Shown here piece after piece: positions 6,175 through 27,238 of a stretch of 38,303 bases of DNA. The notes under the pieces were generated by a model. The model made no database searches, was not told the DNA's origin, and saw only the letters and a list, made by a program, of their open reading frames with translations. The DNA lies in contig CAIXHE010000047.1 of the NCBI GenBank assembly GCA_903919205.1, forward strand, positions 1-38,303, given 5' to 3'. The position numbers and the translations under genes were made by a program. Numbering within the stretch: position 1 is the first letter of the stretch; each line of letters opens with the position of its first letter. Origin of the DNA: an uncultured Opitutaceae bacterium (GTDB lineage: Bacteria; Verrucomicrobiota; Verrucomicrobiia; Opitutales; Opitutaceae).

Positions 6175-9100
6175 CTAAAAGGTCAGCGTGAGCGACGCCG
6201 AGTAAACGCGCCCGCGCCAGTCGCCATAGGACTGGACGCCGGCCCCCGAGGGGTCGTTGGCGTAGTAGGGCGGCCGCCCTGCGAACAGGTTGTCGACCCT
6301 CAGCTGGCCCCGCAGCCCGAGGCGCTTGCTCTCCCACGGCAGCCAACGCCCCAAGTCGCCCTGGAGGTATGCGTCGAACTGCACGAAGGGATCCACACGG
6401 TTGCTGCCCTGGGAAGCCCACTCGGTCTCGGGGAGGATCCTCGAGCTGAAGTACTGCCCGTCCACGCCGAAACCGAAGGCCTTGTTGGACCAGCCGACCC
6501 CGAAGTTCGTGCGCTGGCGCAGCAAGCCGGGCGTGAGGCCGTCGGGATGGTCGAGCTCGTCGACGGGCAGAGTGCCGGGCAGACCCTCCACGTCGTATCG
6601 CTGGAAGTACACCCAGCCGCAGTAGGTGTCCAGGGAGCCGCCCAGGCAGTCGGTCCATGCGTAGTCGAGCGTGCCGGTCCACTCGAAGGAATGCCTCCAC
6701 GCCAGGTTGAAATTGCCGGTAAGGACGGACGTGACCGGTCCGACCGTGTTGGCGCCCCCCTGGGCGGGCGCACCGCGGATCACCCGGGTCGGCAGGATGC
6801 CCTCCAGGTCGACCACCTGCTGGGCGGCGAGGTAGGTCTCCTCCCCCGAGGTCACCGTGTCGATGAAGTCGATGGACGCCCGAAAGTGGTGGATCGTGCC
6901 CCTCTGGAAGATGACGCCCAGGGTCTGGGTGACCGCGGCCTCGGGGAGAAGATTGGGATTGGCCGCGTCGCTCGCCTGCACGTTGTAGGTCTGGTGGAGC
7001 ACGGGGTCGTTGATCAACTGGAGCTGAACGGCACCGGAGCCGATCGAGCTGGTCGGGGCCCGCTCCTCGTGGCTGAAATAGGGAGGTGGAAAGGTGTTCG
7101 AGGTCGCGAAGGTCCCGCGCAGCGAGAGGCCCCCGGCGAAGTCGACCTTGATCGCGGCGGTCGGCGCGGTGTTGGCCTCGTTCGCGAGGTCGGAGGCCGT
7201 GTAGCGCGCCGCCAGGTCCGTCTCGACCCCGTGGATCCACGAGGGCAGCCAGTGCTGCGGGAGCAGCGGCGACTCGAGCTCGCTGAAGGCGCTGATGCGC
7301 TGGAGCGAGCGACCGACCCAGGTGTCGGGCGGGGCGACCAGCGACCCGTCGCCGTAGCGCAGCTCGTCGACGTAGCTCGCCAGCCGCGCGAAGCGGTAGT
7401 CGCCGCCGACGGTCAGCGAGGCCTTGCCCGTCGGAAGCATGAGCGCCGCGTTCGTCAGGCGCAGCGACGCGTCGAACGTGTCGTATTCGCCTAGCGTGGC
7501 GAAGCTGCCCGGCCGGCCGTAGAAGACGACCGCTTCGTCGTAAAAGGCCTGCGGAGGCGCGGAGACCTCGGTGTCCCGGAGGGGGTTGTACAGGCCCTGG
7601 TCGACGAGGCCCTGCCAGCGGGCGTTGTCGACGCCCTCGATGCCTCGGTAGCGCGTGATGTTGAGGCCGTACTGGGCGTCCATCGAGGCCTGCCAGTCGT
7701 GGGGCATCCTCACCAGCAGACCCATTACGGCCGAGTAGAAGTCGACGTGCGCCTCGTCATAGTTCTCGCCGAGCGCGGGCGCCGTCTCGTTGAGCGTCAC
7801 GCCGACGGCCTGGCCGAAGGGGTTGAAGGGCGAGGAGGCCGGGAGCGAGAGGCTGCCCTGGAACACGCTGTAGCCGGTGTTGTTGACGGTGTGCCCCGCG
7901 CTGGCGTCGAGGCCCACCTGGAGCCAGGGAAAGACGTCGTAGGTGGCCGAGCCGAAGATGGACTCGGTCTGGACGCGCCTGCCGTAGGGGTAATCGACGC
8001 TGTCCGGAGAGGCGGCGAGCCCGCCGCCGGGGGCCCGGAAGAGCGCAAGGCTCTGCACACCCTGCCTGTCGGTGAAGGCGCCGCTCCCGCCTTCGGAGCC
8101 GGGTGCCACCGACGTGAAGGACGCCGTGCCCGGGCCGAACAGCGGCGTGTTGGTCGCGCTGCTGACGTTGGGCGTGGCCCGGAAGAGGAGGCTCTCGGCC
8201 TGCGGGTGGAGCGCGAGGTTCTCGCGGATGTAGCCCAGGTCCGACTCCGTCGCGGGGGTCACCTGCGTGAAGGTGGCGTTCAGCCGCACGCGAAGCTTGC
8301 CGCCGAGGAGGGTCTGGCCGTGGAGCAGCGAGGTCGTCGACTGGGCCGCGTCGAAGCCCGCAAACGCGTTCGTGTAGGTCGTCGTCAGCTCGGTCGTGTC
8401 GACGTCGGGGCGCAGCACGATGTTGATGACGCCGCCGATGGGGCTGCCGCTGTAGATGGCCGAGGCCGAGACCGGCAGCACCTCAACCCGCTCGATCAGG
8501 TTGAGCGGGATCACGTTCACGTCGGACTGAGGGGCCTGCGGCCCCGTGGTCAGGCTCGGGGGAAGCGCCGTGACCACCTCGGGCAGCCGCCGCCCGTCGA
8601 CCAGGACGATCGTCGCGTCCGAGCCGAAGCCGCGCAGGTTGAGGTTGTCGCTGCCCGATGCGAAGCTGCTCACGCTGCCATTCTGCTCGGGGGGCAGGGT
8701 CGTCGCGTCGCTGTCGAGGATCTCCCGCTTGAGGAACTGGTTGAGGTTCGTCACGCCGCTGCGGGCGATCTGGTCACGGGTGAGGACCATGTAGTCGAGC
8801 TCGTCGTCCACGGAGCGCGGCTGGTCGAGGTCCCCGATGGCGGTGCGGGGCGCCGAGGCGGACTCGACCTCGACCAGCGGCCCCAGGCGGGCGGACCTGC
8901 CCTCGACGACGAAGGGTGCCAGGCGCTCGGGGTCGGCGGCCGCCTCCATCGTGAACGTCTCGAGGACGAGCACACGCCCAGCGGGCACCACGGCGTCGTC
9001 CACCTCGAGGTTCTGGAGGCCCGCGCCCGAGGCGAACAGCTGGTAGGAGCCGGGCGGGACCCCGACGAGGCTGAAGCGGCCCTGGGCGTCGGTGGGGACC

Positions 9101-9474
9101 GACCGGCGCAGTTTGGGCACGACCACGCGGCACCCCGCGGCGGGCGAGCCGTCCGGCCTGAGGAGCCTGCCCTCGACCGCTCCCTGGGGTACCGCGGCGG
9201 CGGTCACCGTGAAGCGGCCCCGCTCGTTGGGCTGGCCCTCGAAACCGGTGCCGATCAGCAGGCGGTTCAGGGCCTCCTCGGGCTCGTAGCGGCCCACCAC
9301 CGGCGACGAGTTCACCTTGTGGAGCTCATCGAAGGAGAAGATGAGGTCGACCTTGGCCTGGCGCGAGAACGCCATCAGCGCGCTGTCGGCCGTCTGGGAC
9401 GGCAGATCGAAATCCACCGGCTCAGCGAGGGCCGCTAGGGGAATCAGGGCGCACAGGCCCAGAAGGAGGCGCAC
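6175..9474 (-). CDS. TonB-dependent receptor with N-terminal STN signalling domain
   Basis: 1099 residues. After a signal peptide (1-17, LAALA) comes an STN (secretin/TonB short N-terminus) domain: 'VDFDLPSQTADSALMAFSRQAKVDLIFSF ... EALNRLLIGTGFEG' (about residues 22-82). A carboxypeptidase-regulatory-like fold follows (about 95-150: GSPAAGCRVVVP, TDAQGRFSLVGVPPGSYQL). The plug (about 225-350) has 'ILDSDATTLPPEQNGSVSSFASGSDNLNLRGFG' and 'VLVDGRRLPEV', and a long beta-barrel ends in the aromatic residue of SLTLTF. This is an outer-membrane energy-coupled importer. The STN domain, together with the FecR-like and ECF sigma genes upstream in the same direction, indicates a transducer-type receptor reporting ligand binding to the cytoplasm. 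The ligand is unknown and need not be an iron chelate, because relatives import oligosaccharides. It starts 61 bases after the FecR-like gene. Confidence 0.93.
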   Translation of the reverse strand: MRLLLGLCALIPLAALAEPVDFDLPSQTADSALMAFSRQAKVDLIFSFDELHKVNSSPVVGRYEPEEALNRLLIGTGFEGQPNERGRFTVTAAAVPQGAVEGRLLRPDGSPAAGCRVVVPKLRRSVPTDAQGRFSLVGVPPGSYQLFASGAGLQNLEVDDAVVPAGRVLVLETFTMEAAADPERLAPFVVEGRSARLGPLVEVESASAPRTAIGDLDQPRSVDDELDYMVLTRDQIARSGVTNLNQFLKREILDSDATTLPPEQNGSVSSFASGSDNLNLRGFGSDATIVLVDGRRLPEVVTALPPSLTTGPQAPQSDVNVIPLNLIERVEVLPVSASAIYSGSPIGGVINIVLRPDVDTTELTTTYTNAFAGFDAAQSTTSLLHGQTLLGGKLRVRLNATFTQVTPATESDLGYIRENLALHPQAESLLFRATPNVSSATNTPLFGPGTASFTSVAPGSEGGSGAFTDRQGVQSLALFRAPGGGLAASPDSVDYPYGRRVQTESIFGSATYDVFPWLQVGLDASAGHTVNNTGYSVFQGSLSLPASSPFNPFGQAVGVTLNETAPALGENYDEAHVDFYSAVMGLLVRMPHDWQASMDAQYGLNITRYRGIEGVDNARWQGLVDQGLYNPLRDTEVSAPPQAFYDEAVVFYGRPGSFATLGEYDTFDASLRLTNAALMLPTGKASLTVGGDYRFARLASYVDELRYGDGSLVAPPDTWVGRSLQRISAFSELESPLLPQHWLPSWIHGVETDLAARYTASDLANEANTAPTAAIKVDFAGGLSLRGTFATSNTFPPPYFSHEERAPTSSIGSGAVQLQLINDPVLHQTYNVQASDAANPNLLPEAAVTQTLGVIFQRGTIHHFRASIDFIDTVTSGEETYLAAQQVVDLEGILPTRVIRGAPAQGGANTVGPVTSVLTGNFNLAWRHSFEWTGTLDYAWTDCLGGSLDTYCGWVYFQRYDVEGLPGTLPVDELDHPDGLTPGLLRQRTNFGVGWSNKAFGFGVDGQYFSSRILPETEWASQGSNRVDPFVQFDAYLQGDLGRWLPWESKRLGLRGQLRVDNLFAGRPPYYANDPSGAGVQSYGDWRGRVYSASLTLTF

Positions 9475-9535
9475 GGAGTTGGGCGGGAGGGGGCGTGGGC
9501 GCAGGAGGCGAGCAAAAGCGGCGGTGGGCCCGGGA

Positions 9536-10528
9536 TCAACGCCCGTCCGCGGTGCTCACGCGCACCGCGCCGCCCGGCTCCTGGGTCACCCGCACCTTGA
9601 ACGAGCGGGTGATGTCGGAGAGGAACCCGTCCAGGTCGTCCAGGTGGTAGCGCCCGCCCACCGCCACCGAGGCGGCTGCGGGCGAGGCGCTGATCAGCCG
9701 GCCATGGTAGTGCGCGAAGCGGGCGAGCGCCTCGGAGAGGGGGGCCCCCTTCAGCACGATCTCGCCGCGGCGCCACGCCACGGCGTCGTCCACGTCGGCG
9801 TTGCCGAGCGCGCGCACCCGCACCCCGGCCCCGGGAGCCTCGGTCAGCTCCGAGCCGGCTCCCAGGTGGACGGGCCCGTCCGCGAGCGACCCGGACGAGC
9901 CGGCGCGGACCTGCACGGAGCCCTCGACGACCGTGACGTCAAGGTCCGAGGAGGACTGGGTCCTCACGTTGAAGATGGTGCCGGTCACCCGGACCGAGCC
10001 GGCCGGGGTGTCGACGATGAACGGGCGATCCTTGTCCTTGCTGACGACGAAGAAGGCCTCGCCATTGGCCAGGCGGACCCTGCGCTCGGACCGGCCGTTC
10101 TCGACCAGCAGGCTCGTGTTCGCGTTGAGCTCCACGCGCGATCCGTCCGCGAGTGTGAAGGCGCGCCGCTGGCCGGCGGTGGTCACCAGGCTCTCGGACG
10201 AGGGCCCGGGCCACGCCGCCAGGATTGCGGCCAAGGCGAGGCCGGCCGCCGCGAGGCCCCCTGCAGCCAGGAGCCAGGGGCTGCGCCGACGGCGCGCAGG
10301 GGCCGTCGGCAGCAGGCCCTGCGAGGCCAGCCTGGGGAGGAGCTGGCCCACGTCGGATGAAAACTGCTGGTAGCTCTCGAGGAGGCCCGCGTGGGAGGGG
10401 TCCTCCCCGAGCCATGCGCCGAGCGCGGAGCGGTCCGCCTCACTGAGCGCAGAGCCCTCCAGGCGCGCCGCCCAAAGGGCGGCCTGCTCGTCCGAGCCGC
10501 GGCCGGGTGTTGGTGTGTGGCCGTTCAT
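9536..10528 (-). CDS. FecR-like anti-sigma/sigma regulator with C-terminal STN-like domain
   Basis: 330 residues from ATG at 10526-10528, overlapping the sigma-factor stop by ATGA. Layout: cytoplasmic helical N-terminus (1-80, with 'AALWAARLEGSALSEADRSALGAWLGEDPSHAGLLESY', the DUF4880-like anti-sigma part); one membrane span (about 84-106) after the basic run ARRRRS; periplasmic FecR domain ('TAGQRRAFTLADGSRVELNANTSLLV ... VRVTGTIFNVRT ... VVEGSVQVRAG'); and a C-terminal short domain ('IVLKGAPLSEALARFAHYHG ... DGFLSDITRSFKVRVTQE') like an STN/DUF4974 fold. It is expected to hold the ECF sigma factor at the membrane and release it when the receptor's STN domain signals occupancy. An upstream in-frame Met would add 50 residues inside the sigma gene and was rejected. 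Confidence 0.92.
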   Translation of the reverse strand: MNGHTPTPGRGSDEQAALWAARLEGSALSEADRSALGAWLGEDPSHAGLLESYQQFSSDVGQLLPRLASQGLLPTAPARRRRSPWLLAAGGLAAAGLALAAILAAWPGPSSESLVTTAGQRRAFTLADGSRVELNANTSLLVENGRSERRVRLANGEAFFVVSKDKDRPFIVDTPAGSVRVTGTIFNVRTQSSSDLDVTVVEGSVQVRAGSSGSLADGPVHLGAGSELTEAPGAGVRVRALGNADVDDAVAWRRGEIVLKGAPLSEALARFAHYHGRLISASPAAASVAVGGRYHLDDLDGFLSDITRSFKVRVTQEPGGAVRVSTADGR

Positions 10529-11046
10529 GGGTCTAGGGCGCCCTCCAGGCTTTCGCGCAGCAGCCTGAGCGCGCGCGCGTGCTGCTTCTCCACCGTGCTG
10601 ACGGCAATCCCAAGCCGATCGGCGATCTCGCGGTGGGAAAGCTGCTCGATCCGGCGCAGCAGAAGGACGGCCCGGCAACCCTCGGGAAGGTCGGCGATCG
10701 CGGTCTGCAGCAGCTCCAGCTCCTGCTGGAGGATCGCCTCCTGGGCGGCGTCCGGGCCGGGCGAGGCCGCCGTCTCGGGCACCATCGCCTCGCGGGAGAC
10801 CGGCGAGATTCCCCGGCGCCGAAGGCGATTGATCGCCAAGCGCCTCGCCGCAGTGTAAAGCAGTGCCTCGGGCTTTCTTACAAAACCCCCGCCCATCGCC
10901 GGGAACACCCGGACGTAGGCGTCGTGGGCGACGTCCTGGGCCTCGCTTGGGTTGCCGAGCATGCGCGTGAGGTAGCGCCGCAGCGGTGCGATCGTCGCTC
11001 GGTAGAGGGTCGAAAACTCGACCTCGGTTGCGGGTTCATCCGGCAT
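10525..11046 (-). CDS. ECF RNA polymerase sigma factor (FecI-like)
   Basis: 173 residues from ATG at 11044-11046 (MPDEPATEVEFSTLYRATIAPL). Longer in-frame starts add a non-conserved Pro/Gly-rich leader. Region 2 is 'YLTRMLGNPSEAQDVAHDAYVRVF ... LLYTAARRLAINRLRR', and region 4 is 'LPEGCRAVLLLRRIEQLSHREIADRLGIAVSTVEKQHARALRLL', a helix-turn-helix for -35 recognition. The 'STVEKQHARALR' ending is typical of FecI-type factors. It is first in the sigma-anti-sigma-receptor operon and likely activates transcription of the downstream receptor and possibly remote targets. Its stop overlaps the FecR-like start by four bases, indicating coupled, near-stoichiometric synthesis. Confidence 0.93.
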   Translation of the reverse strand: MPDEPATEVEFSTLYRATIAPLRRYLTRMLGNPSEAQDVAHDAYVRVFPAMGGGFVRKPEALLYTAARRLAINRLRRRGISPVSREAMVPETAASPGPDAAQEAILQQELELLQTAIADLPEGCRAVLLLRRIEQLSHREIADRLGIAVSTVEKQHARALRLLRESLEGALDP

Positions 11047-11272
11047 CGGGCTCACCAGTCGAGATAAGGGTATGGTCGGGTTGTCCTTCACGCCTTCCCC
11101 CCACGACACCCGTGCCCGCCAAAACCCCCATCGCCCCGGGCAAAAAAAGCGATTGCCGGGAACGGGGGCCGACTCGGGACACACGGCGAAGGGGGGGATG
11201 CGGAAGGCCGCCCCAGGACACGCCGCGAATATTGTTGTTTAAAGGGCCGCCTGCGACTTCCAAATTGGGCGT

Positions 11273-14788: not shown

Positions 14789-15244
14789 ATGTCGGCAGAC
14801 CTCTCTGACCTGTACCAGCAGGTGATCCTCGACCACAACCGCCGGCCCCGCAACCGCGGCAAGCTGCCGACGGCCAACCGCTCCGCGCACGGCGACAACC
14901 CGTCATGCGGCGACCAGTGCGACGTATTCCTGAGGCTCGACGGCGACCGGATCGCCGAGATCTCGTTCGACGGGTCCGGCTGCGCGATCTCCCAGGCGAG
15001 CGCGTCGCTCATGACCACGCAGCTGAAGGGCAAGACCGCTGCGGAGGCCGAGAAGCTCTACGCCGACTTCCACGAGATCGTGGCGAACGGCAAGGAGCCC
15101 GAGGAGATCAGCGACCTGGCCGCCTTTGCCGGAGTCCATGCCTTCCCCGCGCGCATCAAGTGCGCAACGCTCTCATGGCACGCCGCCCTGAACGCGCTGC
15201 ACGGCGAGCCCGTGGCGGCGACCACGGAAAGCCACACCGATTGA
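14789..15244 (+). CDS. sufU: SufU-type iron-sulfur/sulfur-relay protein
   Basis: 151 residues. It has the SufU/NifU-N fold with three conserved cysteines, C40 (NPSCGDQCD), C65 (GSGCAISQASASLM) and C125 (RIKCATLSWHAL), plus D42. The insertion between the second and third cysteines is typical of SufU rather than IscU. In SufU proteins these residues bind zinc and accept persulfide sulfur from SufS. The next gene, sufS, starts within its stop codon (TTGA), so the two proteins are likely made together. The scaffold proteins SufB, SufC and SufD are not in the window and must be encoded elsewhere. Fe-S clients within the window include the class I fumarase. Confidence 0.95.
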   Translation: MSADLSDLYQQVILDHNRRPRNRGKLPTANRSAHGDNPSCGDQCDVFLRLDGDRIAEISFDGSGCAISQASASLMTTQLKGKTAAEAEKLYADFHEIVANGKEPEEISDLAAFAGVHAFPARIKCATLSWHAALNALHGEPVAATTESHTD

Positions 15245-16476
15245 GCGCGATCCCCACATCGTGGGAGCGCATCCGCGAGGAGTTCCCGATCCTTGACCAG
15301 CAGGTCAACGGGCACCCGCTCGTGTACCTCGACAACGCGGCCACGACCCAGCGCCCGAGGTCCGTCGTGGCCGAGCTCGACCGCTTTTACGCCCGGGACA
15401 ATTCCAACGTGCACCGCGGGCTGCACGCCCTCTCGATGAGGGCCACCGACGCCTATGAGGGGGCGCGGGCGCGGCTGACGCGCTTCATCGGCGCGGCGGC
15501 CGCCGAGGAGGTGATCTTCACGCGCGGGACCACCGAGTCCATCAACCTGGTCGCGGCGAGCTTCGGGGGGGCCAACCTGCGCAGGGGCGACGTGATCCTG
15601 CTGACGGAGATGGAGCATCACAGCAACCTCGTGCCGTGGCAGATGATCGCCCAGCGCACGGGAGCCACCCTCCGCTACGTGCCCGTGACCGGCGACGAGG
15701 GCCTTCTCGACCTCTCCGACATAGACCGGCTGCTCACCCCCGAGGTGAAGATCTTCGCGTTCACGCACGTCTCCAACACGCTCGGCACGGTCAATCCCGC
15801 CGCCGACCTGTGCGCCCGGGCCCGCAGGGTGGGCGCCGTGAGCGTCGTAGACGCGGCGCAGTCGATCGGCCACATGCCGGTCGACGTCGGCGCGATCGGC
15901 TGCGACTTCATGGCGTTCTCGGGCCACAAGATGGCCGGCCCCACCGGCATCGGCGTGCTCTACGGCCGGAGGGCCCTCCTCGACGCGATGCCCCCCTGGC
16001 AAGGCGGCGGCGGCATGATTTCGGCGGTCGACTTCTTTGAGAGCCGCTGGAAGCCCTCGCCGGAGAGGTTCGAGGCGGGCACGCCGAACTTCGGCGACGC
16101 CGCGGCCCTGGGCACGGCCTGCGACTTCCTGGACGCGCTCGGCAGGGAGCGCGTGCGCGAGCACGACGGGGCGCTTGCACGGGAGGCCTACGAGCGACTC
16201 GCGGAGCTGCCCGGCATTCGCCTCCTCGGGCCCGCCGGCGAGCGCGGGGGCCTCGTCAGCTTCGCCTTCAAGGACGTGCACGCCCACGACGTCGTGACGT
16301 TCGCGGACGAGGACGGGATCGCCCTTCGCGGCGGCCACCACTGCAACCAGCCGCTCATGAAGAAGCTGGGCCTCGCCAGCACGGTGAGGGCGAGCTTCTA
16401 CGTGTACAACGAGCGCCGCGAGATCGACGCCCTGGTGGCGTCCATGCGGCGCACGCTCCGCTTCTTCGCGGGCTGA
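15241..16476 (+). CDS. sufS: Cysteine desulfurase SufS (class V aminotransferase, PLP)
   Basis: 411 residues from TTG at 15241-15243, overlapping the sufU stop by four bases. This unusual start gives SAIPTSWERIREEFPILDQ, the normal SufS N-terminus, and the length matches the family (about 405-410). No ATG lies nearby. Key sites: 'VYLDNAATTQRP', 'NVHRGLHALS', 'EMEHHSNLVPWQ', PLP-binding K230 in 'FSGHKMAGPTGIGVLYG', and catalytic C368 in 'LRGGHHCNQPLM'. It removes sulfur from L-cysteine as an enzyme-bound persulfide and passes it to SufU for Fe-S cluster assembly. It converges with the amidohydrolase gene, which ends four bases after its stop. Confidence 0.96.
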   Translation: MSAIPTSWERIREEFPILDQQVNGHPLVYLDNAATTQRPRSVVAELDRFYARDNSNVHRGLHALSMRATDAYEGARARLTRFIGAAAAEEVIFTRGTTESINLVAASFGGANLRRGDVILLTEMEHHSNLVPWQMIAQRTGATLRYVPVTGDEGLLDLSDIDRLLTPEVKIFAFTHVSNTLGTVNPAADLCARARRVGAVSVVDAAQSIGHMPVDVGAIGCDFMAFSGHKMAGPTGIGVLYGRRALLDAMPPWQGGGGMISAVDFFESRWKPSPERFEAGTPNFGDAAALGTACDFLDALGRERVREHDGALAREAYERLAELPGIRLLGPAGERGGLVSFAFKDVHAHDVVTFADEDGIALRGGHHCNQPLMKKLGLASTVRASFYVYNERREIDALVASMRRTLRFFAG

Positions 16477-17813: not shown

Positions 17814-18938
17814 ATGCCGACCCTAGCAACCACCGTCGACGGACTCCGGATGCCGAACCCCTTCGTCATTGGCTCCGGGCCCCCGGGGACCAACCTGAGC
17901 GTGATCAACCGTGCCTTCAGGGAGGGCTGGGGAGCCGTGATCGCGAAGACCGTGAGCCTCGACTCGTCTAAGGTGGTGAACGTGTCGCCCCGCTACGCGA
18001 AGCTCCATTCGACCGACGGCAAGGAGGTGATCGGCTGGGAGAACATCGAGCTTATCAGCGATCGGCCCTTCTCCATCTGGCTCGACGAGTTCAAGCGCTG
18101 CAAGGACGCGCACCCGAGCGGCGTGTTGATCGCTTCGATCATGGAGGAGTACCGCAAGGACTCCTGGGTGGAGATCGTCGAGCGCTGCCAGGACGCGGGT
18201 GTCGACGCCTTCGAGCTCAATTTCTCGTGCCCGCACGGCCTGCCCGAGCGGAAGATGGGAGCGGCGATGGGCCAGGACCCGGACGTGCTGGAGGAGGTGT
18301 CGGGCTGGGTCATGGGGGCCGCCAAGCGCCCCGTCTGGGCGAAGATGACCCCGAACATCACCCACATAGAGGACCCGAGCCGGGCGGCCCTGCGCGCGGG
18401 CTGCAACGGGCTGAGCGCGATCAACACGATCCGCAGCGTGATGGGCGTGAACCTCGACACGCTGCGTCCCGAGCCCTCGGTGGAGGGCTGGACGACTCCG
18501 GGCGGCTACTCCTCCCGGGCCGTGAAGCCGATCGCCCTGCGCATGGTCATGGAGATCTCCACCCTGATCCGGAAGGAATTCCCGGGTCGCTCGCTTTCGG
18601 GGCTTGGCGGGATCGAAAGCGGCGAGGACGCGGCCCAGTTCATCCTTCTCGGAGCCGACACCGTGCAGGTGTGCACCGGCGTCATGAAATTCGGATACGA
18701 ATGCGTGCGGCCGATGTGCGACGAGCTCCTGGCGTTCATGGCCAAGCATGGCTTCGAGACGCTCGCCGACTTCAAGGGCAAGAGCCTCGATTACTTCACG
18801 ACGCACGCGGACCTCGTTCGCCGCCAGGCGGAACGCAAGGCGGCGCAGAAGGCGGCGCCCAAGAAGGTCGTCGCCTCCGACGCGGAATGGAGCGGCGACG
18901 AGTTCGTGAAGCAGTCCGACGCGCTCTCCCGCCAGTAG
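17814..18938 (+). CDS. preA: Dihydropyrimidine dehydrogenase catalytic subunit (PreA-like), lacking the ferredoxin domain
   Basis: 374 residues. The FMN-binding TIM barrel of the dihydropyrimidine/dihydroorotate dehydrogenase family is complete: 'MPNPFVIGSGPPGTNLSVINRAFREGWGAVIAKTVS', 'ELNFSCPHGLPERKMGAAMGQDPD' (135-157), 'AKMTPNITHI', 'SAINTIRSVMGVNLDTLRP', 'GGYSSRAVKPIALRMV', 'SGLGGIESGEDAAQFILLGADTVQVCTGVM'. It would reduce uracil and thymine to their dihydro forms. Unlike E. coli-type PreA (about 410 residues), it ends after the barrel in a Lys/Ala/Gln-rich tail. It has no CxxCxxC motif and therefore no [4Fe-4S] clusters. The mammalian catalytic Cys of the loop before GQDP is M152 here. 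No preT (NAD(P)H/FAD subunit) is nearby, so the electron route is unknown. It is first in the preA-GNAT-mmsA-dihydropyrimidinase operon. Confidence 0.9.
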   Translation: MPTLATTVDGLRMPNPFVIGSGPPGTNLSVINRAFREGWGAVIAKTVSLDSSKVVNVSPRYAKLHSTDGKEVIGWENIELISDRPFSIWLDEFKRCKDAHPSGVLIASIMEEYRKDSWVEIVERCQDAGVDAFELNFSCPHGLPERKMGAAMGQDPDVLEEVSGWVMGAAKRPVWAKMTPNITHIEDPSRAALRAGCNGLSAINTIRSVMGVNLDTLRPEPSVEGWTTPGGYSSRAVKPIALRMVMEISTLIRKEFPGRSLSGLGGIESGEDAAQFILLGADTVQVCTGVMKFGYECVRPMCDELLAFMAKHGFETLADFKGKSLDYFTTHADLVRRQAERKAAQKAAPKKVVASDAEWSGDEFVKQSDALSRQ

Positions 18939-18952
18939 GCCGGGATCGTCCG

Positions 18953-19495
18953 ATGATTCGAGCCGCCTCCATGGAGGATGCCGGGCAGCTGTCAGACATC
19001 TACCGGCCGTTCTGCGAGGACTCGTGCGTCTCCTTCGAGACCGAGGCTCCGGGCCCCGGCGAAATGGCTGCGCGCATCGAGAGGATCCAGCGGAAGTTTC
19101 CCTGGCTGGTTGACGAGCGCGAGGGACGGGTGGCGGGCTACGCCTACGCGTCCCCCCACCGCGAGCGCGCCGCCTACCGCTGGGCGGTAGAGGTGACCGT
19201 GTATGTCCACGAGGCCCACCGAGGGCGCGGTGTCGGCCGGGCCCTCTACACCGAGCTTTTCGCACGCCTGCGCAGCCAGGGCCTCTTCAAGGCCTATGCG
19301 GGCATCCTCGTGCCGAACCCGGCGAGCCAGCGCTTCCATGAGTCCATGGGGTTCACCCTGGTCGGGGTCTACAGCAGGATAGGCTACAAGCTCGGCGCCT
19401 GGCGGGACGTGGGATGGTGGCAGTACTCGATCCAGCCCGAGATCGACGAGCCGCCCGAACCGCGCTATCTGGAGGGGATGGCACCCCAAGCTTGA
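18953..19495 (+). CDS. GNAT N-acetyltransferase (phosphinothricin/methionine-sulfoximine acetyltransferase-like)
   Basis: 180 residues from ATG at 18953. Typical family landmarks are 'MIRAASMEDAGQLSDIYRPFCEDSCVSFETEAP', 'GYAYASPHRERAAYRWAVEVTVYVHEAHRGRGVGRALYTELF' (acetyl-CoA motif A with RGRGVG) and 'GILVPNPASQRFHESMGFTLVGVYSRIGYKLGAWRDVGWWQ'. Proteins of this group acetylate the amino group of amino-acid-like substrates such as methionine sulfoximine. It lies between preA (14 bases) and mmsA (its stop and the mmsA start share one base, TGATG), so it is cotranscribed with the pyrimidine genes. Its role there is unclear. Acetylation of a beta-amino acid or toxic by-product is a guess, and an antibiotic-resistance role is not indicated. 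Confidence 0.88.
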   Translation: MIRAASMEDAGQLSDIYRPFCEDSCVSFETEAPGPGEMAARIERIQRKFPWLVDEREGRVAGYAYASPHRERAAYRWAVEVTVYVHEAHRGRGVGRALYTELFARLRSQGLFKAYAGILVPNPASQRFHESMGFTLVGVYSRIGYKLGAWRDVGWWQYSIQPEIDEPPEPRYLEGMAPQA

Positions 19496-20991
19496 TGACG
19501 ACAACCTCATTGCACCCCTGCCCGCACTTCATCGGAGGAGAGTGGATCCACTCCAAGGACGCCGGCTACCCGGTCTACAACCCCTCGACCGGAGGCGTGA
19601 TCGCCGAGAGCCCCCTAGGGGGAGCTTCGGAGGTCCACGCGGCGGTTGAGGCCGCTGCGGCGGCCTTCCCTTCGTGGAGGGATACCCCCCCGGTGGAGCG
19701 CGCGCGCCTCTTCTTCCGATACCGGCACCTCGTGGAGGAGAATTTCGACCGCATCTGCTCCTGCATCGCCCTCGAGCACGGCAAGACCCTCGCCGAGGCG
19801 CGGGGCAGCCTCTACCGCGGCCTCGAGAACATCGAGTACGCGTGCGGGATCCCCTCGCTCCTCTTCGGCGACACCCTCGAGAACATCGCGCGCAACGTGG
19901 ACTGCGAGACGATGCTGCAGCCGCTCGGCGTCAGCGTGGGAATCACGCCCTTCAACTTCCCGGCGATGGTGCCGCTATGGATGTTCCCGCTCGCCGTCGC
20001 CTGCGGTAACACCTTCGTCCTCAAGCCGAGCGAGAAGGTGCCGCTTACGGCCGTCCTCCTCGTCGAGCTGCTCGAGAAGGCGGGCCTACCGACCGGAGTC
20101 TTGAACGTGGTGCACGGCGGGCGCGAGTGCGTCGACGCGCTGCTCGCCCACCCCAAGGTGCGGACCATCTCCTTCGTCGGGTCGAGCCCCGTTGCGCGCC
20201 ACATCTACGAGACGGGCACGCGCAACGGAAAGCGGGTGCAGGCGAACGGGGGCGCAAAGAACTACATCGTCGTGATGCCGGACGCCGACGTCCAGCGCTC
20301 GGTGGAGGCGCTCTCGACGGCAGCCTTCGGCTGCGCCGGCGAGCGCTGCATGGCGGGCTCGACCGCCCTCACGGTGGGCAAGGCTTCGGACGTGATACTT
20401 CCCCATCTGGTCGAGGCCGCCCGCTCGATCAAGGTGGGCCGCACCGACACGCCCATCTCGCAGCCCGACATGGGCCCCTTGATCACCGGGGCTCACCGGG
20501 ACCGCGTGCTCGGGCTCGTCTCGAGCGGCGAGCGCGAGGGCGCGGTGGTCGCCTGCGACGGCAGGGGGGTGCGGGTGGCGGACGCACCCGGCGGCTTCTT
20601 CATGGGGGCCACGGTGCTCGACCATGTCCGGGACTCGATGGCGGTTGCGCGTGAGGAGATCTTCGGGCCGGTGCTCAACGTGATGCGCATGGAGGACCTC
20701 GACCAGGCGATCGAGCTGGCCAACCGCTCGGCCTACGGCAACGGCGCCGCCATCTTCACGTCTTCCGGCGGGGCGGCGCGCGAGTTCAAGCACCGGGTGA
20801 AGGCGGGCATGGTCGGCATCAACGTGGGCGTCCCGGCCACGATGGCGATGTTTCCCTTCTCGGGTTGGGACGCCTCGTTCTTCGGAGACCTGCACATCCA
20901 GGGACGCGAGGCCGTCCAGTTCTACACCCAGCAGAAGGTCGTCACCTCGCGCTGGTTTGGGGGCAGGGTCGACGACGTCTGGAAGAAGTGA
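19495..20991 (+). CDS. mmsA: CoA-acylating (methyl)malonate-semialdehyde dehydrogenase
   Basis: 498 residues. An aldehyde dehydrogenase fold with 'GITPFNFPAMVPLWMFPLA' (N154 oxyanion), NAD-binding 'FVGSSPVARHIYETG' and nucleophile C285 in 'AFGCAGERCMAGS'. The block 'QANGGAKNYIVVMPDAD' replaces the usual ELGGK motif and its general-base Glu. This marks the CoA-dependent methylmalonate-semialdehyde dehydrogenase subfamily, in which CoA rather than water resolves the thioester. It would convert malonate semialdehyde to acetyl-CoA and methylmalonate semialdehyde to propionyl-CoA with NAD+, releasing CO2. In this operon it takes the product of the aminotransferase at 25898-27238 and closes the pathway. 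The start shares one base with the GNAT stop. Confidence 0.94.
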   Translation: MTTTSLHPCPHFIGGEWIHSKDAGYPVYNPSTGGVIAESPLGGASEVHAAVEAAAAAFPSWRDTPPVERARLFFRYRHLVEENFDRICSCIALEHGKTLAEARGSLYRGLENIEYACGIPSLLFGDTLENIARNVDCETMLQPLGVSVGITPFNFPAMVPLWMFPLAVACGNTFVLKPSEKVPLTAVLLVELLEKAGLPTGVLNVVHGGRECVDALLAHPKVRTISFVGSSPVARHIYETGTRNGKRVQANGGAKNYIVVMPDADVQRSVEALSTAAFGCAGERCMAGSTALTVGKASDVILPHLVEAARSIKVGRTDTPISQPDMGPLITGAHRDRVLGLVSSGEREGAVVACDGRGVRVADAPGGFFMGATVLDHVRDSMAVAREEIFGPVLNVMRMEDLDQAIELANRSAYGNGAAIFTSSGGAAREFKHRVKAGMVGINVGVPATMAMFPFSGWDASFFGDLHIQGREAVQFYTQQKVVTSRWFGGRVDDVWKK

Positions 20992-20998
20992 GGCACGC

Positions 20999-22384
20999 AT
21001 GGCTCTCCTCATCAAGAACGGCACGATCATCACCGCCGACTCCAGGGCGAGGGCGGATGTCTTCTGCGAGGGCGAGACGATCACGCGGATCGGGCCTGGG
21101 CTCGAGGCGCCTGCGGGCGCCGAAGTGGTCGACGCCACCGGCAAGTACGTGTTCCCGGGCTTCATCGATCCCCACGTGCACATCACGCTGCCGTTCATGG
21201 GCACGCACGCGAAGGACACCTATGAGACCGGCAGCCGCGCAGCACTCGTGGGCGGGACCACCACGCTGATCGAGATGTGCTGCCCGGCGCGCAGCGACGA
21301 CACCCTGGGCTCCTTCGAGCACTGGCTGGCCCAGGCCGAGGGGAAGTCGGCGTGCGACTTCACCTTCCACATGGGGGCGACGCGCTTCGACGGGGCCACC
21401 GAGTCCGCGCTGCGGGAGATCGTCCGCAGGGGTGTCAGCTCCTTCAAGATCTTCCTCGCCTACAAGGGCGCCTTCGGGATCGACGACGGCGAGCTCTACC
21501 GCACGCTCAAGCTCGCGCGGGAGCTCGGGGTCGTCGTCACGGCGCACTGCGAGAACGAGACCCTGGTGGCCGAGAGGCAGCGGGAGCTACTCGCGGCCGG
21601 AAAGACAGGCCCCGGCCAGCACCACGAGAGCCGGCCGCCGCTGGTGGAGGCCGAGGGCGTCAACCACCTGATGACCTTCGCGGAGCTGACCGGCGCCCAC
21701 ACGTACATCGTGCACCTGAGCTGCGCCGAGGCCCTCGACAGGGCCCTCGCCGCCCGCAGGCGCGGGGTGAACGTGGCGGTGGAGACCCTGATCCAGTACC
21801 TGGTCCTCGACAAGACCTGGGCCGAGAGGCCGGGCTTCGACGGAGCCAAGTACGTGATGTCGCCCCCCCTTCGCGACCGGTCCAACCAGGACGTGCTTTG
21901 GAACGGCCTTCGGGACGGACTGATACAGACCGTGGCGACCGACCATGCCCCGTTCGACTTCGGCACCCAGAAAAACATGGGCCTGAATGACTTCACGAAG
22001 ATCCCGAACGGCATCCCCTCGCTCGAGGAGCGCGTCGTTCTGCTGCACACCTTCGGGGTGCGGCAGGGCCGGATCGACCTCCACCAGATGGTGAACGTGG
22101 CGAGCACCCAGGTTGCCAAGGCCTTCGACCTCTTCCCGCGCAAGGGCACGATCCAGCCCGGCGCCGACGCCGACCTGGTGGTGTTCGACCCGGACCACCG
22201 CGGGACGATCTCGGCGAAGACCCAGCACATGAACGTGGACTACAGCGCGTTCGAGGGCTGGAGGACCGAGGGCCGCGCGAGCGTGGTCACCGTGCGCGGC
22301 GAGGTCGCGGTCAGGGATGGCCAGTTCGTCGGGTCGAACCGGCGCGGGCAGTTCCTCAGGCGTGCGCCTAGCCGGAGGACCTAG
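20999..22384 (+). CDS. Dihydropyrimidinase (D-hydantoinase family)
   Basis: 461 residues, the usual family length. Binuclear metal site of the cyclic amidohydrolases: H59 and H61 in 'PGFIDPHVHITLPF', carboxylatable K150 in 'SFKIFLAYKG', H183 in 'TAHCEN', H239 in 'IVHLSC' and D315 in 'VATDHAPF'. It opens dihydrouracil or dihydrothymine to the N-carbamoyl-beta-amino acid. Genomic context (preA, mmsA, permease, amidohydrolase) supports dihydropyrimidinase over allantoinase or a general hydantoinase. It starts seven bases after mmsA and is last in the operon. The next gene converges from the other strand with its stop only six bases away. Confidence 0.94.
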   Translation: MALLIKNGTIITADSRARADVFCEGETITRIGPGLEAPAGAEVVDATGKYVFPGFIDPHVHITLPFMGTHAKDTYETGSRAALVGGTTTLIEMCCPARSDDTLGSFEHWLAQAEGKSACDFTFHMGATRFDGATESALREIVRRGVSSFKIFLAYKGAFGIDDGELYRTLKLARELGVVVTAHCENETLVAERQRELLAAGKTGPGQHHESRPPLVEAEGVNHLMTFAELTGAHTYIVHLSCAEALDRALAARRRGVNVAVETLIQYLVLDKTWAERPGFDGAKYVMSPPLRDRSNQDVLWNGLRDGLIQTVATDHAPFDFGTQKNMGLNDFTKIPNGIPSLEERVVLLHTFGVRQGRIDLHQMVNVASTQVAKAFDLFPRKGTIQPGADADLVVFDPDHRGTISAKTQHMNVDYSAFEGWRTEGRASVVTVRGEVAVRDGQFVGSNRRGQFLRRAPSRRT

Positions 22385-23485: not shown

Positions 23486-24445
23486 ATGGCGAAGCGATTC
23501 TCAGAGCTGACGGAGCAGGAGGTGATGGCCCTCGCCGTTTCTCTTGAGGAGGAGGACGGCCGCATCTACGGGGACATGGCGGACCGCTTCCGGGTCTCCT
23601 ACCCCGCCACGGCGGCCATCCTGACACGCATGCAGCAGGAGGAGTCGGGGCACCGCCAGACCCTGATCGACCAGTACCGCGCCCGCTTCGGCGAGCATAT
23701 CCCCCAGATCCACCGCGCGGACGTGAAGGGCATGGTGGGACCGAAGCCCATTTGGATGATGAAGACGCTCACGGTGGTGCAGGCACGCAAGCACATCGCC
23801 ATCATGGAGTTCGAATCGAGGAGGTTTTACGAGGCCGCGGCGGCGCGCACACAGGACGCGGGCACGCGCAAGCTCCTGGGCAACCTCGCCCTCGAGGAGG
23901 CCGCGCACACGGCCCTGGCCGAGCGGCTGGGCTCCGAGCAGATCGCCTCGGGCGAGCGCGCCCAGGAGGACGACACCCAGCGCCGCCTCTTCGTGCTTCA
24001 GATCGTGCAGCCCGGGCTCGCCGGCCTGATGGACGGCTCCGTCTCCACCCTCGCCCCACTCTTCGCGGCCGCATTCGCCACCCACAGCAGCCATGACGCG
24101 TTCCTGGTCGGCCTCGCCTCGTCGGTAGGCGCCGGCATCAGCATGGGCTTCGCCGAGGCGCTCTCGGACGACGGCGCGCTCAGCGGGCGGGGCCACCCGC
24201 TGATCCGCGGCACGGTCTGCGGCCTGATGACCGCCGGGGGCGGCCTCGGGCACACCCTGCCCTTCATGATCGCCGACTTCCACTACGCCTTCACCCTGGC
24301 CGTGGCCGTGGTGGTGGTGGAGCTGATCATCATCTCCTGGATCCGGCACCACTACATGGACACGCCGTTCCTGTCGGCCGCGTTCCAGGTCATCGTCGGG
24401 GGTGTCCTCGTCTTCTTCGCGGGCATGCTGATCGGGTCCTCGTGA
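23486..24445 (+). CDS. mbfA: Membrane-bound ferritin-type iron exporter (rubrerythrin-like domain fused to VIT1/CCC1 domain)
   Basis: 319 residues. Residues 1-150 are a ferritin-like four-helix domain with diiron ligands in '[14 protein letters not shown]' (E21-E23), '[10 protein letters not shown]' (E52/E53, H56), '[14 protein letters not shown]' (E108, E110) and '[14 protein letters not shown]' (E137, E138, H141). The region from about 165 to the end is a VIT1/CCC1 membrane domain with several helices: '[24 protein letters not shown]', '[23 protein letters not shown]', '[18 protein letters not shown]' and '[18 protein letters not shown]'. The fusion matches MbfA proteins, which export iron and protect against iron and peroxide stress. 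Its stop overlaps the start of the NCS1 permease by four bases (GTGA), so this iron gene is translationally linked to pyrimidine uptake. Confidence 0.93.
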
Positions 24446-25893
24446 GCGTGAGCAATCCCCTCGCCAACGCGGACCTGCTGCCCGTTCCCGCCGAGAGGCG
24501 CACGTGGCGCGTGGGCAGCTACGCGGCCCTGTGGATCTCCATGTCCGCGTGCGTGCCCACGTACATGCTCGCCTCGTCGCTCGTCGGGGGAGGCATGAAC
24601 TGGTGGCAGGCGATCCTCACCATCTTCCTCGGCAACGCGATCGTGCTCGTGCCCATACTGCTCAACGCGGACGCCGGCACCCGCTACGGCATACCCTTCC
24701 CCGTCTTTTGCAGGGCCTCGTTCGGCACGGTCGGGGCCAACGTCCCGGCGGTCCTGCGCGGCCTGGTCGCCTGCGGCTGGTTCGGCATCCAGGCGTGGAT
24801 CGGGGGCGACGCCCTCCACAAGATCCTGGAGCTCTGCTACCCCTCGATGGCATCCCCGGCGGGATCGGGCGCGCTTGGGATCACCGCCTCGCAGTTCGCC
24901 TGCTTCCTCGCCTTCTGGGGCGTGAACATGTGGGTGGTGTACCGGGGCATCGACTCGATACGCGTCCTCCTGAACATCAAGGCGCCGCTGCTGATAGCCC
25001 TCGGGGTCGCCTTCCTCGTCTGGGCGCACCGCAGCGCGGGCGGATTCGGCCCCATGCTCTCGCAGCCGTCGGCCTTCGCGACCGGCCAGCCCCACGCCGG
25101 CCAGTTCATGGCCTTCTTCATCCCGGCGCTGACCGGGATGGTCGGATTCTGGGCCACCCTCTCCCTCAACATCCCCGACTTCTCGCGCTACGCCGCGTCC
25201 CAGCGCGACCAGGTCCTGGGACAGGCCCTCGGGCTGCCGCTTGCCATGGCCTTCTACGCGTTCATCGGCGTAGCGGTGACCTCGGCCACGGCGGTCATCT
25301 TCGGGAAGACGATCTGGGACCCGATCGAGGTGCTCGTGCACTTCAGGAACCCCGCGGTGCTCGTGCCGGCGATGGTGGCCGTGTGCGTCGCCACGCTCGC
25401 CACCAACATCGCCGCCAACGTGGTGTCGCCCGCCAACGACTTCTCGAACCTGGCGCCGCGCTGGATCTCCTTCCGCACGGGCGGCCTCATCACCGGGCTT
25501 CTCGGCATCGCCATGATGCCCTGGAAGCTCGTGGCGGACCCGAGCGGCTACATCTTCACCTGGCTGGTCGGCTACAGCGCGCTGCTGGGGCCGATCGGCG
25601 GGATCATGATCGCCGACTACTTCGCCTACCGCCGGCGCGTGCTTGACGTGGCCGCGCTCTATGACGCCTCGGGCTGCTACCGCTACACCGGGGGCTGGAG
25701 CCTCGCCGCGGTGGCCGCGTTCGTCCTCTCGGTGCTGCCCAACCTGCCGGGCTTCCTGGTCCAGGTCGGCTGCCTGGCCCCGTCAGCGGTGCCGTCCCTC
25801 CTGCTCGCCCTCTACGGCTACGCCTGGTTCGCGGGCTTCGCGATAGCGTTTGTGGTGTACCTCGTCCTGCGCAAGCTCTTCCCCCTCCTCTGA
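24442..25893 (+). CDS. NCS1-family nucleobase permease (uracil/cytosine/allantoin-type)
   Basis: 483 residues from GTG at 24442, overlapping the mbfA stop; GTG 24448 is an alternative. About twelve membrane spans. NCS1 landmarks include '[37 protein letters not shown]', '[41 protein letters not shown]', '[11 protein letters not shown]', '[19 protein letters not shown]' and '[12 protein letters not shown]'. Proteins of this group carry uracil, cytosine, allantoin, hydantoins or related bases with Na+ or H+. The locus context suggests uracil/thymine, or a dihydropyrimidine or hydantoin. It lies in the inner membrane. Four bases separate it from the aminotransferase. Confidence 0.93.
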
Positions 25894-25897
25894 AGCC

Positions 25898-27238
25898 ATG
25901 AAAGACATCCCGCTCCCCCCGTCCAGCCACGTCCCCCAGCCGTACACAGGTCCGTCCGCGGAGGAGGTCCTGGCGCTGCGCAAGGAGTACCTGAGCCCCT
26001 CCATTTTCCACTACTACAAGAAGCCCATCATGATCGTGGAGGGCCGCGCGCAGTGGCTGTTCGACGAGAAGGGCCGCCGCTACCTGGACGGCATCGGGGG
26101 CATCGTCACCGTCAGCTGCGGGCACTGCCACCCCCACATCGTCGCCGCCGCCCACCGCCAGAACGAGCTCCTGCAGCACACCACGACCATCTACCTCAAC
26201 CCGAACATCGCGCTCTACGCCAGGGAGCTGGCGGCCCGCATGCCCGGCGACCTGAAGGTGGTCTACCTCGTGAACTCGGGCTCGGAGGCCAACGACCTGG
26301 CCGCCATGATGGCGCGGGCGTACACGGGCTGCTACGACCTCATCTCGCTGCGCAACAGCTACCACGGGGGCAGCCAATCGACCATGGGCCTCACGTCCCA
26401 CCACACCTGGAAGTTCAACGTGCCCCACAGCTTCGGCGTCCACCACTCGGTGCTCCCCGACCTCTACCGCGGGCCCTACGGCAAGGACGACCCGGACGCG
26501 GGCCGCAAGTACGCCGAGGACGTGAAGAGCCTGATCCAGTTCGGGACGTCCGGCCGGATCGCGGGCTTCATCGCCGAGTCGATCCAGGGCGTGGGCGGCA
26601 CGGTGGTCTTCCCCGACCACTACCTGAAGCACGCCTACGAGCACGTCCGCGCCGCCGGCGGCCTGTGCATCGCCGACGAGGTGCAGTCGGGCTTCGGGCG
26701 CACGGGCACCCACTTCTGGGGCTTCGAGACCCAGGGGGTGATCCCGGACATCGTCACCATGGCGAAGGGCATCGGCAACGGCTGCGCCATGGCGGCGGTC
26801 GTCACGACGGCGAAGATCGCAAACGCCCTCACCTCCCGAATCCACTTCAACACGTTCGGCGGCAACCCGGTGGCGTGCGCGCAGGCCCGGGCGGTGCTCG
26901 AGGTGATCGAGCGCGAGGGGCTGCAGGCCAACTCGCTGGCGATCGGCGCCTACCTGAAGGAGGGCTTCGGCCGCCTGGCCGAGAAGCACTCGCTGATCGG
27001 CGACATCCGGGGCCTCGGCCTCATGCTGGGCGTGGAGCTCGTCAAGGACCGAAGTACGAAGGAGCCCGCCAAGGAGGAGTGCGCGCAGGTGTTCGAGACC
27101 TGCAAGGACCTCGGCCTGCTGATCGGCAAGGGCGGACTGTGGGGCAACACCCTGCGCATCAAGCCCCCGATGATCTTCACGAGGAGCGACGCAGACTTCA
27201 TGCTCGCCGTGCTCGACGAGGCCCTGGCCTCGGCCTAG
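25898..27238 (+). CDS. Class III PLP aminotransferase (AGXT2-like; beta-alanine / beta-aminoisobutyrate transaminase candidate)
   Basis: 446 residues. Motifs include 'SPSIFHYYKKPIMIVEGRAQWLFDEKGRRYLDGIGGIVTVSCGHCHPHI', 'VYLVNSGSEANDLA', 'SYHGGSQSTMGLTS', 'CIADEVQSGFGRTGTHFWGFETQGVIPDIVTMAKGIGNG' with PLP-binding K290, and 'HFNTFGGNPVACAQARAVLEVI'. The 'SPSIFHYYKKP' opening and overall sequence resemble mitochondrial alanine-glyoxylate aminotransferase 2, which also uses beta-aminoisobutyrate. In this operon it most likely removes the amino group of beta-alanine or beta-aminoisobutyrate to give (methyl)malonate semialdehyde for MmsA, with pyruvate or glyoxylate as acceptor. Substrate assignment is inference. 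The start lies four bases after the permease stop; its stop shares CTAG with the convergent lipoprotein gene. Confidence 0.92.
   Translation: MKDIPLPPSSHVPQPYTGPSAEEVLALRKEYLSPSIFHYYKKPIMIVEGRAQWLFDEKGRRYLDGIGGIVTVSCGHCHPHIVAAAHRQNELLQHTTTIYLNPNIALYARELAARMPGDLKVVYLVNSGSEANDLAAMMARAYTGCYDLISLRNSYHGGSQSTMGLTSHHTWKFNVPHSFGVHHSVLPDLYRGPYGKDDPDAGRKYAEDVKSLIQFGTSGRIAGFIAESIQGVGGTVVFPDHYLKHAYEHVRAAGGLCIADEVQSGFGRTGTHFWGFETQGVIPDIVTMAKGIGNGCAMAAVVTTAKIANALTSRIHFNTFGGNPVACAQARAVLEVIEREGLQANSLAIGAYLKEGFGRLAEKHSLIGDIRGLGLMLGVELVKDRSTKEPAKEECAQVFETCKDLGLLIGKGGLWGNTLRIKPPMIFTRSDADFMLAVLDEALASA

Follow-up and report, generated by a model that had tools for sequence, protein, structure and literature searches.

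A short, Fe-S-free predicted dihydropyrimidine dehydrogenase of plant-type architecture beside uracil-degradation genes in Verrucomicrobiota

The dihydropyrimidine dehydrogenase (DPD) of plants is a small enzyme. At about 400 residues it corresponds to the C-terminal half of mammalian DPD, and according to the available part of the rice study it keeps the FMN and uracil sites and carries no Fe-S, FAD or NADPH sites (PMC9930899). The authors of that study searched plant databases for a PreT-like protein and found none, and their recombinant rice enzyme, OsDHPD, was soluble but showed no activity with NAD(P)H or in a fumarate/DCIP assay; they caution that the protein may have been wrongly truncated or tagged (PMC9930899, available part). 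The partner of the Arabidopsis enzyme PYD1 was left unidentified (PMC2713857), and the accessible portions of the two papers state the electron donor of plant DPD as an open question in 2009 and again in 2023 (PMC2713857, PMC9930899). Elsewhere ferredoxin can reduce a DPD that has no FAD part, and the DPD in that system retains its clusters (PMC7332683, excerpted text). The same source describes a bacterial survey of 3,419 PydA candidates in which a 4Fe-4S domain was required, so that a short, Fe-S-free group was excluded by design. Our search of the open-licence literature turned up no report of an Fe-S-free DPD from bacteria, and the literature searched on horizontal gene transfer held nothing on a short DPD.

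The DNA analysed here, called the window below, is a stretch of 38,303 nucleotides from an uncultured Opitutaceae bacterium (contig CAIXHE010000047.1, assembly GCA_903919205.1). A first-pass annotation of the window had described a PreA-type gene with a full FMN barrel and no Fe-S motif, and this description was borne out. The gene and its parts are as follows.

17814..18938, + strand: predicted short Fe-S-free dihydropyrimidine dehydrogenase of PYD1-like architecture, 374 aa (translation, profile matches)
17823..18782, + strand: FMN barrel, aligning with pig DPD (E 1.2e-66)
18792..18935, + strand: C-terminal tail, consisting of the anchor YFTTHADLVRRQ, a variable Lys/Ala/Gln linker and the conserved motif DAEWSGDEFVKQSDAL

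Translation of the reading frame gives 374 codons with zero internal stops. The PreA profile NF006183 matches at 385 bits (cut-off 335) over profile positions 3-332 of 422, that is over the barrel only, and the match ends at about the point where the Fe-S domain starts in the long PreA proteins compared. A Pfam search of the 374-residue protein returned DHO_dh alone and no Fer4 domain, and the two ferredoxin domains of clostridial PydAc were absent by both Pfam and motif search. The closest solved structure is pig DPD (residues 535-853, E 1.2e-66), and in that alignment K45, T46, N77, E79, N136, C139, K177, N204 and T205 of the window protein stand opposite pig K574, T575, N609, E611, N668, C671, K709, N736 and T737, which we take to be residues of the FMN and uracil sites. 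In a comparison of 25 short proteins all nine were identical throughout. The next ATG lies at 18953, 14 bases past the stop codon of the short preA, and the frame there encodes an ArsN1-B-type GNAT, in agreement with the earlier claim that this gap leaves no room for a ferredoxin piece.

The same short form is found well beyond this contig. A contig search gave 338 relatives, and the best 80 of these 338 were examined: they are 74-91% identical to the window protein, nearly all of them across all 374 residues with a few clipped by contig ends, and their records bear verrucomicrobial names nearly throughout, including named Luteolibacter, Roseibacillus and Haloferula strains. One record, named Magnetospirillum sp. 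(L028), has the verrucomicrobial type of gene cluster, on a contig of 1.4 Mb, and is possibly a mislabelled MAG. The 88-89 short loci used in the counts below are not all independent, as L110/L058, L103/L066 and L107/L081, pairs whose contigs have equal lengths, are probably the same loci and L111 is a copy of the window; L059, with no single matching ORF of 250 aa, was left out of the 88 short proteins. Neither the window protein nor any other short homologue that was read as a single ORF contains the motif C..C..C...C. Each of the 30 long PreA proteins in the comparison, 21 of them from the phylum and 9 plasmid-borne, contains it exactly twice; the window protein is about 34-46% identical to these 30. 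The first-pass annotation had raised the concern that an assembly error removed the Fe-S part, and the window does come from a MAG in 174 contigs. However, the same end and the same tail motif recur in dozens of independent assemblies, those of the named strains included, and the short form returns in the 80 loci examined (best of 338); an assembly or frameshift artefact is thereby ruled out, and we regard its probability as negligible.

A PreA-profile search of 288 genomes of the phylum placed 31 above the cut-off, 10 of them with the short form (the window's own genome included) and 21 with the long, and the profile match ends at position 330-334 in the former and at 403-418 in the latter. 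Within the window's own family (26 sampled genomes) the short form scored above the cut-off in the window's genome (G000), G045 and G122, and a long form adjoining a PreT domain was found in G154, G018 and G282. Short and long solutions may replace one another within one family, and families that hold both are natural pairs for comparison. From these sequences, many relatives of the window bacterium appear to use the same stripped-down first enzyme for uracil breakdown. We built a tree from 25 short proteins (24 plus the window's), 30 long ones, two dihydroorotate dehydrogenases (DHODs) and one approximate Arabidopsis PYD1 sequence; rooted on the two DHODs, it renders the Fe-S forms paraphyletic, so the Fe-S domain would have been lost in the short forms, conditional on a root that is weak. 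No relative of the short PreA was found in viral contigs. The plasmid matches listed reach at most 46% identity and are annotated as PreA, dihydroorotate dehydrogenase/oxidase, 4Fe-4S protein or nothing; all 9 plasmid PreA-like proteins compared are long, and the 54-residue C-terminal piece gave zero plasmid matches. Three plasmid preA genes (L112, L115 and L116; hosts Deinococcus psychrotolerans, Pusillibacter faecalis and Selenomonas ruminantium) have both Fe-S motifs and no PreT annotated alongside in the stretch examined.

The earlier claim that neither an Fe-S domain nor PreT exists locally holds for the window, where Pfam showed no such domain in the short protein and the best tblastn match to three PreT protein queries had E 0.09. 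A genome-wide search for preT, as the first-pass annotation had proposed, extended this result. The window's own genome, 88% complete, contains no Fer4_20 (the PreT Fe-S domain) by domain search, and its sole match to PreT proteins is one of 76 residues to a single PreT (E 5e-4). Because of this degree of completeness the comparative result outweighs that from the single genome. Fer4_20 is present in 21 of 21 long-form genomes and lies at most about 1.3 kb from preA on the same strand in 19; the coupling is not absolute, as two long-form genomes (G130 and G162) have no PreT domain near preA. Eight of the ten short-form genomes have no Fer4_20 at all, and the three hits in the remaining two (G122 and G214) are all GltD, the glutamate synthase small subunit (TIGR01317, 700-791 bits, cut-off 448). 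PreT was accordingly found in none of the ten short-form genomes, that of the window at 88% completeness among them. At the level of loci, tblastn with the three PreT proteins matched 0/89 short loci versus 26/30 long loci, where one of the 26 matches is weak (66 residues) and three of the 30 loci are the sources of the queries; 80 of the short loci had flanks of as much as 6 kb to search, the other nine no more than about 1.5 kb.

The first-pass annotation had stated that all later pathway enzymes are present, and the window does encode a dihydropyrimidinase, an amidase, an MMSDH and an aminotransferase. These and the surrounding genes are listed below.

6175-11184, - strand: consecutive genes for an ECF sigma factor, a FecR-like regulator and a TonB-dependent receptor
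14905-16476: SufS-type cysteine desulfurase, extended at its N terminus by about 100 residues
16481..17728, - strand, divergent: hydantoinase/carbamoylase-family Zn amidase, likely beta-ureidopropionase as to its inferred substrate (TIGR01879, 289 bits, cut-off 204)
18953-19495: ArsN1 family B-type GNAT, kin of arsinothricin/phosphinothricin acetyltransferases (NF040504, 217 bits, cut-off 210)
19414..20991, + strand: MMSDH-type CoA-acylating (methyl)malonate-semialdehyde dehydrogenase (TIGR01722, 632 bits, cut-off 448.5; match from residue 38)
20957..22384, + strand: dihydropyrimidinase (TIGR02033, 542 bits, cut-off 393)
23486-24445: MbfA-type rubrerythrin-VIT1 iron exporter, between dihydropyrimidinase and NCS1 permease
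24442..25893, + strand: NCS1-family nucleobase permease (TIGR00800, 381 bits, cut-off 353)
25850..27238, + strand: class III aminotransferase, likely beta-alanine aminotransferase, a substrate suggested by the operon (PF00202, 297 bits)

Much of this arrangement is shared by the other short loci. Where the flank on the side in question extends for 5 kb or more (59 loci downstream, 56 upstream), dihydropyrimidinase is encoded downstream, on the strand of preA, in 51/59 and is missing from the flanks in 8/59, and MMSDH does so in 49/59 and is missing in 10/59. NCS1 follows downstream in 34/59 loci (32 on the same strand) and the class III aminotransferase in 29/59 (24 on the same strand), with the aminotransferase missing from the flanks of 29/59. 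The amidase is upstream in 39/56 loci, on the opposite strand in 30 and the same strand in 9; in 4 it is on the other side, and in 13 none was seen. Other genes come and go. Of the 68 loci that extend 3 kb or more downstream, 7 have a match to the GNAT between preA and MMSDH, and 5 to the MbfA-type exporter, which is outside the conserved neighbourhood. Two recurring ORF clusters inside the uracil gene cluster (8 and 6 loci) belong to the 23S rRNA-intervening-sequence family (PF05635), an assignment made by scanning one member of each (L054:7127-7636 and L013:9218-9619), and for the most part sit on one side of MMSDH or the other, between it and preA or between it and dihydropyrimidinase. A cytidine-deaminase-fold protein (PF00383; L048:10140-10580) represents a further 6-locus cluster near the uracil genes and might feed deaminated bases into the uracil pathway. 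In the window, the SufS-type protein strongly matches the model for the family 2A encapsulin cargo desulfurase, below its cut-off (559/800).

Given an FMN barrel of this kind, the direction and substrate of the reaction have to be weighed. The window protein scores below the cut-offs of all three DHOD models (TIGR01037 168/270, NF002702 85/301, TIGR01036 39/200), and a class-2 PyrD above its cut-off is encoded elsewhere in the genome in 10 of 10 short-form genomes, so a biosynthetic dihydroorotate dehydrogenase was ruled out. A reverse or different reaction, that of a dihydropyrimidine oxidase or of a fumarate- or quinone-linked enzyme, has a parallel in the fungal dihydrouracil oxidases, which in the available part of the source are FMN-type enzymes that do not have the Fe-S clusters seen in mammalian DPD (PMC9585004). 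Those fungal enzymes are class-1A-like, whereas the window protein reaches only 85 of the 301 bits set for NF002702 and falls far below the cut-off of the class-2 models, and the neighbours of the short preA are mostly degradative genes. The oxidase and quinone options put forward in the first-pass annotation thus found no support, and we consider such a reaction very improbable. With the catalytic residues intact and a separate PyrD present, the best reading of these sequences is that of a partnerless, FMN-only uracil reductase. The enzyme would open the operon's pathway by reducing uracil, and probably also thymine, to the dihydropyrimidine, and dihydropyrimidinase, ureidopropionase, beta-alanine aminotransferase and malonate-semialdehyde dehydrogenase would carry out the later steps.

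The first-pass annotation had noted a Lys/Ala/Gln-rich tail on the protein; that stretch is present, but it is only a variable linker, and a strongly conserved motif follows it at the C-terminus. After the barrel the anchor [TS]H..LV..[QH] is found in 88 of 88 short proteins examined, the linker spans 11-27 residues (measured where both flanking elements are present), and the terminal motif D..W....[FV][VI]..S..L follows in 86 of 88, the two exceptions being L061, where the match stops at a contig end, and L071, which has an ambiguous residue. None of the 30 long PreA proteins has the motif, and among 790 other flank ORFs it occurs in one, which also has the anchor and probably represents a fragment of a short PreA. 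We infer that a conserved end on a variable tether may serve as a docking or fold-back peptide, which it resembles. An AlphaFold model from a shallow alignment had a mean pLDDT of 72 with poor active-site loops and tail, and nothing was drawn from it.

As the two-[4Fe-4S] domain and PreT are both absent, electrons must come to the FMN from outside the enzyme. The earlier suggestion of an electron route other than PreT is supported by this absence and by the exclusion of an assembly error. Our favoured explanation, held with some confidence, is that an FMN-only DPD of PYD1 architecture reduces uracil at the head of a reductive degradation operon, and that a general soluble carrier most likely feeds its FMN. 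Such a carrier, encoded elsewhere as a ferredoxin or flavodoxin with its reductase or as a comparable flavoprotein, would dock on the barrel itself, and the conserved C-terminal motif may help to guide it there. In favour of this, plants and these bacteria alike have the architecture with no linked partner, and ferredoxin was demonstrated to feed a DPD without its FAD part (PMC7332683, excerpted text); since that enzyme retains its clusters, direct transfer from carrier to FMN is not demonstrated by that system. All 10 short-form genomes encode Fer2, Fer4_7 and NAD_binding_1 domains, so that these single out no carrier. The hits to carrier domains identified in the window's own genome are NuoI, a flavohemoprotein/PaaE/BenC-like reductase with Fer2, and a CysJ-like piece, the latter two below curated cut-offs; a free ferredoxin is not among these three.

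The obligate partner could instead be a dedicated reductase with no relation to PreT, its gene lying outside the operon, to which the conserved tail motif binds. The near-universal occurrence of that motif behind its linker in short proteins, and in none of the long ones, would suit such a partner, and the plant authors postulate an additional protein (PMC9930899, available part). No candidate emerged, however, and no redox neighbour recurs: 862 ORFs in 80 loci, predicted by a simple composition-based caller that may miss small genes, yielded one [4Fe-4S] pattern and one 2Fe-2S-like pattern. Ten of the 25 listed recurring flank clusters were scanned against Pfam and showed no relocated Fe-S domain, three being without a match and the other seven comprising two 23S-IVP, a deaminase, an OHCU decarboxylase, a PD-(D/E)XK, a PIN and a glycosyltransferase. 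On these grounds we judge a dedicated reductase unlikely. The tRNA dihydrouridine synthases have an FMN barrel without FAD or Fe-S. Direct reduction of the FMN by NADH or NADPH, as in these synthases, would fit the FMN-only architecture and make a partner unnecessary, but the rice enzyme, which has this architecture, was inactive with both, though perhaps wrongly truncated or tagged (PMC9930899, available part), and we find this route distinctly improbable. The architecture of the short form does not support the name 'NAD-dependent' that the NCBI PreA model confers.

Peptides of plant PYD1 turned up in none of the papers searched. An approximate Arabidopsis PYD1 sequence is 60% identical to the window protein (224/375 aligned positions), versus 37-42% to 12 long PreA proteins in the same comparison. 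Five of seven published residue landmarks fit this approximate sequence with one offset, the other two being one residue off, and a fit of 5 was reached in 2/5000 shuffles. In the phylogeny, which the first-pass annotation had also proposed, the approximate PYD1 joins the short clade with 97% ultrafast bootstrap and lies outside the bacterial short proteins (80%). It agrees with the short form at 19 of 29 diagnostic positions, and its tail shows the anchor together with a W.GD.FV core, though not the strict motif. As the plant sequence is approximate, kinship of the short form with the plant enzyme is a strong lead rather than a finding. We would go one step further only tentatively: Verrucomicrobiota and plant plastids may possess one and the same partnerless uracil reductase, in which a general carrier delivers electrons to the FMN and the D..W....FV..S..L motif docks it, replacing the Fe-S domain. 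If true, the bacterial operon answers the missing-reductase question of plant pyrimidine catabolism.

Set against known systems, the short form and bacterial PreA/PreT have the FMN barrel, the catalytic residues and the gene neighbours in common, whereas PreA/PreT has a two-[4Fe-4S] C-terminal domain and PreT; the short form has neither and is therefore not a member of that system. Clostridial PydAc is alike in having no FAD/NAD(P)H part and provides the precedent for a ferredoxin donor, but retains two ferredoxin domains (four clusters) where the short form has none. The fungal dihydrouracil oxidase and class-1A DHOD are likewise FMN barrels without Fe-S; they belong to another subfamily by model score and work in the opposite direction. 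Plant PYD1/OsDHPD, at about 400 aa, likewise consists of the FMN barrel alone, with the FMN and uracil sites kept and no Fe-S, FAD or NADPH sites, and, as in the short-form genomes, no PreT homologue was found. The approximate plant sequence also appears to have much of the C-terminal tail in common, with different last residues, and the plant enzyme is a chloroplast enzyme whereas the short form here lies within a bacterial gene cluster. What had first been proposed as a new variant of pyrimidine catabolism thus has a precedent in the plant enzymes, which lack the same parts in the accessible portions of their descriptions (PMC2713857, PMC9930899). The short form is a bacterial example of the plant-type DPD architecture and not a new kind, and since it stands beside its pathway genes and in named strains, it makes the plant donor question approachable by bacterial genetics and biochemistry.
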